From positions 1 through 64,000 of the forward strand of contig JAFECJ010000004.1 in the NCBI GenBank assembly GCA_018242205.1: a DNA stretch of 64,000 nucleotides, written 5' to 3'. Source of the stretch: Pseudomonadota bacterium (lineage in GTDB: Bacteria; Pseudomonadota; Alphaproteobacteria; Rhizobiales; Xanthobacteraceae). Position 1 is the first letter of the stretch; each line of letters begins with the position of its first letter. The notes beneath the pieces were generated by a model. It did not search any database. It was not told the origin of the DNA and saw nothing but the letters and a program-made list of their open reading frames with translations. A program made the position numbers and the translations under genes. Of the stretch, positions 33,042 to 62,530 are shown in pieces.

Positions 33042-33050
33042 CGGTCTTCA

Positions 33051-33208
33051 CCTCTCCCCGCATTGCGGGGAGAGGTCGGATCGCCGTCCACGTCAATTTG
33101 GAAATTCTGCCTGAAATGGCGATCCGGGTGAAGGGCGTCCATTGCCCCTCACCCGGCTCGGACCGACCGGTCCTCGCCACCCTCTCCCCGTAAACGGGAG
33201 AGGGGAAG
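33051..33208. repeat. Dispersed palindromic repeat cluster
   Basis: cctctccccgc-attgc-ggggagagg at the left and ccaccctctcccc...gggagagggg at the right flank a central segment with gggtgaagg and cccctcacccgg. This is the element family also found at 40440-40526, 59989-60014 and 62315-62530. It lies between the convergent cytochrome and regulator genes and could serve both as a transcript end. Confidence 0.75.
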
Positions 33209-39372: not shown

Positions 39373-40203
39373 ATGAGCGCGCCTGCGATCGACCTCGACG
39401 CTTATTTCAAACGCGTCGGCTATGACGGCCCGCGCGACAAATCGCTTGCGACCTTGCGCCGGCTGCACGAGCTGCATCCGCAGACGATCCCCTTCGAGAA
39501 TCTCGATCCGCTGCTCGGCCGGCCGGTTCGGCTGGATCTTGCTTCGCTCCAGGACAAATTGGTTCAGAGTGGCCGTGGTGGCTATTGCTTCGAACATAAT
39601 ACGCTGCTCGCGGCGGTGCTGCGCGCGCTCGGCTACGCAGTTAAGGAAGCGACCGGGCGCGTGCGCTGGGGCATAGCGCCGGAGGTGCGCATGCCGCGGA
39701 CGCATTGTCTGCTGATCGTCGAGGCCGAGGGCGAGCGCTATCTGGCCGATGTCGGCTTCGGCGGGAACACGCTGACCGGGCCGCTCAAACTCGAGGCGCG
39801 CGAGGCGCAGGCGACGCCGCACGAGGAGTTCCGCCTGGTCGATGAGGATAATGGCATCGTCGCCCAGGAAGCACTGGTCGGCGGGCAGTGGCTGGCTACG
39901 TATGCCTTCGATTTCACCGAGACGTATCCGGCGGATTTCGAACTCGGCAACTGGTACACCTCGGCGCATCCGAATTCGCTGTTCGTCAACGGCATCCTCG
40001 GCGCGCGCGCCGACCGGGGCCGGCGCTATGGATTGCGCGACAACCAGCTTTCGGTGCACACGCTGGGCGGCAAGACCGAGAAGACCACGTTGGCGAGCGC
40101 GCGCGAGTTGCGCGATGCGCTCACCGATCTGTTGAAACTGAGGCTCGATGGCCTCACCGGGCTCGATGACAAGCTGGCCCGCCTTGCGGAGAGAACGCCA
40201 TGA
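39373..40203 (+). CDS. nat: Arylamine N-acetyltransferase
   Basis: It transfers acetyl from acetyl-CoA to arylamines, arylhydroxylamines or hydrazines. It has 276 residues. The Cys-His-Asp triad is C72 (RGGYCFEHN), H111 (PRTHCLLIV) and D126 (YLADVGFGG). PFENLDPLLGRP near the N terminus is a family signature. The start is ATG behind GAGGAACTG. Its stop codon overlaps the next gene's ATG (ATGA). Its link to the neighbouring pseudouridine synthase is positional only. Confidence 0.95.
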   Translation: MSAPAIDLDAYFKRVGYDGPRDKSLATLRRLHELHPQTIPFENLDPLLGRPVRLDLASLQDKLVQSGRGGYCFEHNTLLAAVLRALGYAVKEATGRVRWGIAPEVRMPRTHCLLIVEAEGERYLADVGFGGNTLTGPLKLEAREAQATPHEEFRLVDEDNGIVAQEALVGGQWLATYAFDFTETYPADFELGNWYTSAHPNSLFVNGILGARADRGRRYGLRDNQLSVHTLGGKTEKTTLASARELRDALTDLLKLRLDGLTGLDDKLARLAERTP

Positions 40204-41615
40204 AACGCGGCGGTAAAGGCGGTCCCCGACAGCCGGGTGGCGGCAAGCAGACGGCGGGCCCGCGCAAAGGCGGCCGTCCGCCACAAGGCCGCGGCGGACG
40301 CAAGGATCGCTTCGGCGGCCGCAACGAGAATGCGCGGTTCGTGGATGACGAGCGCGGGCCGCGCGGCAAGTTTGGCGGTGAGCGCAGCGGGCGTCCGCGC
40401 GCGAAATACGGTAAGCGCGATGAGCAGCACTCGGCCCGCCACCCCGAGGTTCGCACGCCGCGCAGCAGCGGAGCGAAGCGCGCTCCCTCTTCCCGCGCGC
40501 GGGGAGAGGGTTGGGGTGAGGGGGCGTCTCGTCACGTTGAGCCGAATCGTTATTCTCCTATCCTCGACCAGGCGGAAAGGTCTGAGAAGGAGGCAATCTC
40601 GCCGGCTTTGCTCGCCGCCACCAAGGTGCAGACCGTCACGGTCACGCCCGACGAGAACGGCATGCGCGTCGATCGCTTCTTCGAGGCGCGCTTTCCCGGG
40701 TTGTCGTTCAGTCACATACAGCGCATCGTCCGCAAGGGCGAGGTGCGGGTGAACGGCAAGCGCATCGAAACAAAATCCCGCCTCGAGGCCGGCCAGCAAG
40801 TCCGCATTCCACCGCTGCAACTCGCCGCGCCGCGGGTGCGCGAGGATTCACCGCAGGTGCTCAAGGATCGTGACTACCTGCACTCGATCACCTTGGCGGA
40901 GGACGACGATGTGCTCATCCTCAACAAGCCGATGGGGCTCGCAGTGCAGGGCGGCTCCGGTACGACGCGCCATGTCGACGGTCTGCTCGAAGCGCTGCGC
41001 GGGCCTGGAAGGGACGCGCAAAAGCCGCGGCTGGTGCACCGCCTCGACAAGGACACCGCCGGCTGCCTGCTGATCGCCAAGACGCGCTTTGCCGCCGCGG
41101 CGCTCGCCAAGACCTTCCGCACCCGTTCGGCGCGCAAGATCTACTGGGCGCTGGTCGCCGGCGTGCCGAAGCCTAAGCAGGGCCGCATCTCGACCTATCT
41201 CGCCAAGCAGGAGATGGAGGAGGATTCCTTCATGCGCGTCGCCAAGCACGGCGAGAAGGATGCCGTGCACGCGGTGACCTATTACGCGGTGGTCGAGACC
41301 TCGGCGCAGAAGCTCGCCTGGATTTCGCTGAAGCCGGTGACCGGCCGCACGCATCAGCTCCGCGCCCATATGGCGCATATCGGGCACCCCATCGTCGGTG
41401 ATCCGAAATACTTCAATATCGAGAATTGGGAATTGCCCGGCGGCATCCAGAACAAGCTGCATCTCTTGGCGCGGCGCATCGTCGTGCCGCATCCGCGCGG
41501 CGGCACCATCGACGTCTCGGCGCCATTGCCCCCGCACATGCAGCAATCGTGGAATCTGCTCGGCCTCGACGCCGAACGGTTCGATCCGATCGTCGATGCG
41601 CCGGACGAGGACTGA
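40200..41615 (+). CDS. RluC/RluD-family large-subunit pseudouridine synthase with repeat-bearing tail
   Basis: It converts specific uridines of 23S rRNA to pseudouridine. It has 471 residues. An S4 RNA-binding domain (MRVDRFFEARFPG ... GEVRVNGKRIE, about 156-205) precedes the catalytic domain with RLVHRLDKDTAG, catalytic D283, and GRTHQLRAHMAHIGHPIVGDPKY. The N-terminal ~150 residues are Gly/Arg/Lys-rich and disordered-looking. Within them residues about 81-109 are encoded by a dispersed palindromic element. Starts by 4-nt overlap with nat. Specificity (RluC versus RluD type) is not resolved. Confidence 0.93.
   Translation: MKRGGKGGPRQPGGGKQTAGPRKGGRPPQGRGGRKDRFGGRNENARFVDDERGPRGKFGGERSGRPRAKYGKRDEQHSARHPEVRTPRSSGAKRAPSSRARGEGWGEGASRHVEPNRYSPILDQAERSEKEAISPALLAATKVQTVTVTPDENGMRVDRFFEARFPGLSFSHIQRIVRKGEVRVNGKRIETKSRLEAGQQVRIPPLQLAAPRVREDSPQVLKDRDYLHSITLAEDDDVLILNKPMGLAVQGGSGTTRHVDGLLEALRGPGRDAQKPRLVHRLDKDTAGCLLIAKTRFAAAALAKTFRTRSARKIYWALVAGVPKPKQGRISTYLAKQEMEEDSFMRVAKHGEKDAVHAVTYYAVVETSAQKLAWISLKPVTGRTHQLRAHMAHIGHPIVGDPKYFNIENWELPGGIQNKLHLLARRIVVPHPRGGTIDVSAPLPPHMQQSWNLLGLDAERFDPIVDAPDED
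40440..40526 (+). repeat. Dispersed palindromic repeat inside a coding region
   Basis: The block has the same ccctc-tccc-gcgcgc-ggggagaggg core and ggggtgaggggg tail as intergenic elements at 33051-33208 and 62315-62530. Here it is read in frame without stops in the linker ahead of the S4 domain of the pseudouridine synthase. Confidence 0.8.
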
Positions 41616-47140: not shown

Positions 47141-47157
47141 GGGGAGTCCTTCTTCCG

Positions 47158-47326
47158 CCTCATCCTGAGGAGGCCGCGAAGTGGCCGTCTCGAAGGATGG
47201 GCCTGCCCGATATCGGCATTTGATATTAGGAAGTCGGCTTAGCCGACTTCCGGTGGTTCGAGGCGCGCTCCTACGGAGCGCTCCTCACCATGAGGCAGAT
47301 AAGGTGCCGAAAACAAGCCCGGCCAT
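47158..47326. repeat. Composite cluster of dispersed palindromes
   Basis: It contains cctcatcctgagga...tctcgaaggatg (47158-47200), a perfect 9-3-9 hairpin gaagtcggc/gccgacttc (47230-47250), an inverted unit ggttcgag...tcctcaccatgagg (about 47255-47294) and a partial acaagcccggccat (47313-47326). The two outer units are related and face each other. These match element types I know from Bradyrhizobiaceae. The cluster lies downstream of korB. Confidence 0.75.
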
Positions 47327-59988: not shown

Positions 59989-60014
59989 CCTCTCCCCGCC
60001 GGGGCGGGGAGAGG
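59989..60014. repeat. Perfect 12-2-12 palindrome between convergent genes
   Basis: cctctccccgcc and ggcggggagagg around gg. This is the core of the dispersed repeat family also present at 33051, 40440 and 62315. It lies between two converging genes and can act as a transcript end for both. Confidence 0.8.
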
Positions 60015-62314: not shown

Positions 62315-62530
62315 CTTCCCCTCTCCCCATAGGCGAACGAACGCTCGCCGTCCGGCGAGCTATGTGGGAGAGGGTGCCTGAGTGCAGCGAAGCCGCGCGA
62401 AGGCGGGTGAGGGGGCGGATTTAGACGCTGCGTTGACCCCTCACCCGGCTCAGCCCTTCGGGCTTCGCCACCCTCTCCCACATAAGGGCGTTCACGCCCG
62501 TCTTCGACGGGCTATGGGGAGAGGGAAAGA
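62315..62530. repeat. Two head-to-head copies of the dispersed palindromic element
   Basis: The outer ends ttcccctctccccatag and ctatggggagagggaa are inverted, as are the inner gggtgaggggg and ccctcacccgg and gtgggagaggg and ccctctcccac. Together they form an imperfect inverted repeat over about 215 bp. It fills the divergent gap between the TPR-glycosyltransferase and the carboxylase gene (62269-62609). No other signal was recognised there. Confidence 0.8.

Follow-up and report, generated by a model that had tools for sequence, protein, structure and literature searches.

Dispersed hairpin repeats in the putatively translated tail of an RluC/D-type pseudouridine synthase gene of Pseudolabrys

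A segment near the 5' end of an RluC/D-type pseudouridine synthase gene resembles repeats that lie between genes of the same genome, which raises the question of whether a dispersed repeat has become part of a protein. The gene lies in the window, the 64,000-nucleotide stretch of DNA analysed here, on contig C80 of a Pseudolabrys (Xanthobacteraceae) genome (G000; 4.6 Mb, 99.4% complete). In this study, we report that the segment very probably consists of dispersed hairpin repeats inserted in frame into the putatively translated N-terminal tail of the enzyme.

The gene (40200..41615, + strand) encodes 471 aa with an S4 domain (residues 155-201) and a PseudoU_synth_2 domain (237-393). The codons of the N-terminal tail (40200..40625, +; residues ~1-142) are G+C-rich and specify a basic, low-complexity sequence (25% K/R, 11% hydrophobic) that is hypervariable in length among orthologs. 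The AlphaFold model of the protein was poor (mean pLDDT 51, shallow alignment) and too weak for statements about the protein core, and its pLDDT of <50 over nearly all of residues 1-134 suggests disorder only weakly; the tail is probably a dispensable, disordered, basic extension of the S4 domain.

Repeat families in the segment

F1, a dispersed hairpin-forming repeat of the form CCCTCTCCC..GGGAGAGGG, is scattered through the genome of this soil bacterium and is present in 40 of 43 genomes in the genus. The 4.6 Mb genome holds 78 exact copies of the strict F1 hairpin word, CCTCTCCC..GGGAGAGG, against 0 for the reversed control, and a BLAST search of positions 40420-40546 against the same genome returned 64 places, mostly on the hairpin-plus-tail part. 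Own-genome BLAST, exact copies and shuffle-tested alignment identified F1 in the RluC/D-type gene as a single arm (40482..40524, +), which comprises a 26-nt hairpin, CCCTCTTCCCGCGCGCGGGGAGAGGG (40485..40510, +), and the tail TTGGGGTGAGGGGG, and is read as APSSRARGEGWGEG. This arm aligned over its full length with an intergenic copy (L002), and 0/300 shuffles aligned as well. Full intergenic copies are inverted pairs, in the order hairpin, GGGTGAGGGG, spacer, CCCCTCACCC, hairpin. Comparison of fetched copies placed intergenic F1 in the window as a dimer of two inverted arms (33050..33206), a single hairpin (59989..60014), and a dimer whose two hairpin loops each contain additional stem-loops (62319..62525). 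An Rfam search of the window gave no match.

The preliminary description of this locus had proposed that about 87 bp of the gene share core and tail with intergenic repeats. Those intergenic sites (33051, 59989 and 62321) do exist, but only about half of the length is F1 and the rest resembles a second family, F2. It had also noted that the insertion keeps the frame without a stop codon; the frame is indeed kept, but the absence of a stop is unremarkable and weak evidence, because F1 arms were open in 267 of the 318 frames tested (84%).

F2 is a CGTC-tagged family, CGTCACCCTGAGG..CTCAGGATGACG, with 40 strict matches in the source genome, both strands counted, and a clean control. Tag statistics were taken from fetched stretches holding 62 distinct F1 and 32 F2 hairpins, a subset of all copies. 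The GTAG tag was found beside the hairpin in 0/62 F1 and 0/32 F2 copies; as to a terminal CGTC/TGTC tag, CGTC was carried by 18/32 F2 copies, fitting the tag feature of the CGTC superfamily, and by 1/62 F1 copies, which does not fit it.

Within the gene, positions 40435..40481 (+) hold a probable F2 remnant (CGTC-type, CGTCACCCTGAGG..), and clearer F2 copies occupy the equivalent position in the sister genomes G010 and G033, G010 and G000 having GCGYAGYAGCGGAGCGA in common. When the remnant was aligned with F2, as high a score was reached by 1/300 shuffles for G010 and by 4/300 for G033; because these scores are borderline, derivation of 40435-40481 from F2 is likely, not proven. In the sister alignment, a second F2-like start word, CGTCACGTTGAG, stands right after F1 (40530..40541, +). 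The segment is probably a composite of F2 and F1 rather than the single 87-bp insertion of the preliminary description.

The whole composite, with identical boundaries, is common to G000 and G032 (0/300 shuffles as good), and the end-to-end alignment of boundaries and flanks makes independent gain of F1 in the two genomes less likely. F1 is absent from the nearer G010 and G029, so that its presence in G032 needs losses, convergence or gene exchange. In the tail of G032 (L012), a 14/15 direct repeat, TCCCGTCGCCC[T/C]GAG, stands on either side of the F1 insert and may represent a duplicated target or two F2 starts.

The F2 word search found an intergenic arm, CCTTCGAGACGGCCACTTCGCGGCCTCCTCAGGATGA (47160..47196, -), and the surrounding positions 47155-47290 of the window hold this arm, then a AAGTCGGCTTAGCCGACTT hairpin and then a second, degenerate F2-like arm. 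As a possible coding case, an F2 arm also lies near the N-terminus of a GNAT gene (L167).

The tail among orthologs and other coding sites

In the genus orthologs G027 and G008 the segment is missing and the flanks are conserved, as the preliminary description had expected of sister species, and other orthologs carry a different repeat at this place, so that sisters differ by lineage-specific repeats. The opposite pattern which it had named, a segment common to all orthologs and without likeness elsewhere in the genome, was not what was found.

The scan covered 83 distinct tails, obtained from a genome search and from named genome contigs, the genomes being mostly draft metagenome assemblies. 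Signatures of F1 (4 tails), F2 (7) or F3 (CCCTCCCC..GGGGAGGG; 3) were detected in 13 tails in all, where dinucleotide shuffles gave an expectation of 0.08. Exact F1/F2 words numbered 7, one of them spanning two N, against ~0.5 expected from whole-genome density. BLAST in chosen genomes showed that the inserts of G033, L128 and G004 match further places in the genomes of the group; for the G033 insert these places lie in relatives, only the tail passing the cut-off in G033 itself, a genome with 47 occurrences of the strict F2 word. The repeat-bearing tails required at least 7 changes, 4 of which are forced by well-supported branches, on a tree of 82 core proteins. The excess of repeats, together with these changes, indicates that the RluC/D tail has been repeatedly colonised.

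Other coding genes show the pattern as well. Pfam-supported genes with F1 inside them numbered three among the loci examined, namely the RluC/D-type gene, a UvrD/PcrA helicase gene and an RsuA/RluB-type gene; the remaining copies lie mostly outside such genes, between genes or over unsupported ORFs. The search for further in-frame copies that the preliminary description had recommended was therefore productive, with two in the helicase and one in the RsuA/RluB-type enzyme. ORFs overlying repeats without Pfam support were set aside as antisense or spurious (L156, L003, L158, L048, L150, L151, L164, L169, L173, L176, L187, L224, L225, L234 and others). An ATP-dependent DNA ligase gene (L149:298-2100, -) has an F1 arm immediately 5' of the probable start codon; since the repeat precedes MNRFAEL, it was taken as leader and not counted as coding.

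The RsuA/RluB-type pseudouridine synthase (L153:1882-3051, -; G000:C69) carries F1 in its C-terminal basic tail, and is the second pseudouridine synthase of the source genome with a repeat.

The strongest extension of the RluC/D case is the UvrD/PcrA helicase gene (G000:C69:112373-115126; L154:2138-4894, -), in which two complete F1 dimers stand in frame: the first immediately precedes the motif VGDDDQSIYGWRG and the second the tudor domain. The linker from QYLWLRLL to NICCVGDDDQSIY is mostly ~5 residues long in other families of the order and ranges from 9 to 132 in Pseudolabrys. Across 20 genomes, the arm pairs in this linker were F1 in 7, F4 (CGTCATTCCGGG..) in 8 and F2 in 2, with none in 3. 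The family labels need 11 changes on the UvrD tree, as many as shuffled labels, which implies that family turnover outpaces speciation at present sampling. F1 and F4 pairs lie, in several genomes, on either side of a homologous spacer core, L[E/A][D/A]T[W/F]D, which is also found in the repeat-free G007. A further family, F5 (AAGTCGGATATATCCGACTT), is nested inside the F1 hairpin loop in the UvrD genes of G010 and G012 (L191, L194).

Translation and selection of the tail

The F2 inserts in tails are read in one hydrophilic frame, RHPE.., and one of the two other F2 frames is already closed by the TGA of the start word (TCA CCC TGA). This shared frame, the basic, hydrophilic peptide encoded by the insert (24% K/R) and the occurrence of inserts in two pseudouridine synthases and a helicase of one genome would all suit co-option of the tail, either as a basic peptide for RNA binding or as an mRNA hairpin retained by selection. 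We consider this improbable, as family, length and sequence turn over among close relatives, tail-less orthologs exist, and stop avoidance with purging of hydrophobic frames also accounts for the choice of frame.

Somewhat less probable again is an untranslated leader as the site of the repeat: the true start would be downstream (for example, the GTG near 40626), and the repeat would influence expression as a hairpin in the mRNA. PMC3733652 warns of many extragenic REPs at annotated 5' ends, the orthologs L038 and L113 are nearly tail-less and start beside the core, and the RNA of the segment has a stable fold (-60.7 kcal/mol, z -2.4). However, the annotated ATG shares bases with the stop codon of the preceding N-acetyltransferase gene and follows GGAGAG just 5' of it; the start MKRGG..GPRQPGGGKQ is kept in the close clade, and many genus members keep both the start and the GPRQPGGGKQ motif, despite differing DNA before the start. 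Over the 82 codons upstream of the insert, G000 and G029 differ at 6, 10 and 31 sites in codon positions 1, 2 and 3, respectively (P = 5e-6), and a similar third-position bias was obtained for G000 against G027 and against G033. This bias places the start of translation upstream, at the conserved MKRGG..GPRQPGGGKQ, and, as judged from codon comparison, shows the tail upstream of the insert to be under protein-level selection. Inside the insert, 11/21 differences fall at third positions (P = 0.056), a weak protein-level signal. Every repeat-bearing tail whose start could be read has a single open frame through to the core, and the repeat segment itself is open and in frame within a putatively translated tail.

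That no insertion took place, the low-complexity, G+C- and R/G/P-rich simple tail resembling the repeat by chance or convergence, is highly improbable given the 13 tails found against 0.08 expected, and for F1 was refuted by the shuffle controls, the intergenic alignment beating 300/300 of them.

Proposed route and known systems

For the in-frame insertion of dispersed repeats, the following order of events is proposed. An F2 (CGTC-type) element would have inserted first, in an ancestor that G000 shares with G010, G033 and G032, and an F1 arm, which G032 also has, would then have been placed in or beside the F2 remnant. Repeats would land widely, and those in coding DNA would persist only at flexible, dispensable segments whose frame they leave open. 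Frame-keeping insertions would be tolerated because the tail is dispensable and probably disordered, and each may widen the harmless target for the next, as a landing pad; the insertions are presumably neutral and would not have to benefit the enzyme. F1 and F2 would be mobile. REPINs are mobilised by RAYT (IS200/IS605-like) transposases, and F1 recalls them in being dispersed both as inverted hairpin pairs and as single hairpins, but differs in that the GTAG tag was found in none of the 62 copies examined and that no Y1_Tnp (PF01797)/RAYT gene was found in G000 or 23 genus mates (24 genus genomes), in a search that detected the positive controls. This absence agrees with CGTC repeats having been reported without a dedicated transposase.

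More tentatively, and as a proposal that we consider rather improbable, certain protein segments in the genus could be standing landing pads where the turnover of whole hairpin families is quicker than the splitting of species, arm pairs being built up around a retained host spacer; REP dimers would then arise on site through inverted copying, with no dedicated transposase. The turnover in the UvrD linker, together with its shared spacer core, offers the strongest support for this wider proposal.

In-frame palindromes within ORFs are known from Rickettsia as RPEs of 105-146 bp (PMC2229807), and a passage of PMC3733652 cites them as sitting in frame in conserved protein genes including the pseudouridine synthase TruB. 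GTAG/CGTC REPs have been described in ORFs of many bacteria, with targets that include DNA-repair and RNA-binding genes, UvrD/Rep helicase and TruA/TruB, as have head-to-head REP dimers and different REPs at about the same recB site of two Xanthomonas species (PMC3733652). The RluC/D case belongs to this known phenomenon: the repeats are multicopy palindromes, mostly intergenic, and stand in frame in a conserved gene while being absent from orthologs. With RPEs they share short palindromic form, dispersal and in-frame position in conserved genes including a pseudouridine synthase; host order and sequence differ, F1 is without the CGTC tag reported for RPE-4 and RPE-6 (PMC3733652), and F1 is here a single 43-bp arm beside an F2 remnant. 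The resemblance to RPEs that the preliminary description had drawn holds as an analogy, but F1 may belong to another family, GTAG occurring in 0/62 and CGTC in 1/62 F1 copies; it is F2, not F1, that carries the tag of the CGTC superfamily (RPE-4/RPE-6, dRS3). GTAG/CGTC REPs are likewise found in frame in UvrD helicase and pseudouridine synthase genes and as head-to-head dimers, whereas F1 has neither tag and one site has been traced here through ~80 orthologs and several families. Of MITE features (terminal inverted repeats shared with a full transposon, and target-site duplication), a 14/15 direct repeat was observed around the G032 insert, though it may represent two F2 starts. It is unusually clear here that families recur and turn over at a single coding site.

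The locus adds a case outside Rickettsia, with families for which no transposase was found, and the RluC/D tail and UvrD linker make the movement of tagged and untagged REPs testable through close strains. It offers a clear comparative case of non-coding repeats becoming putative protein sequence, in which the many lineages of one genus serve as natural replicates.
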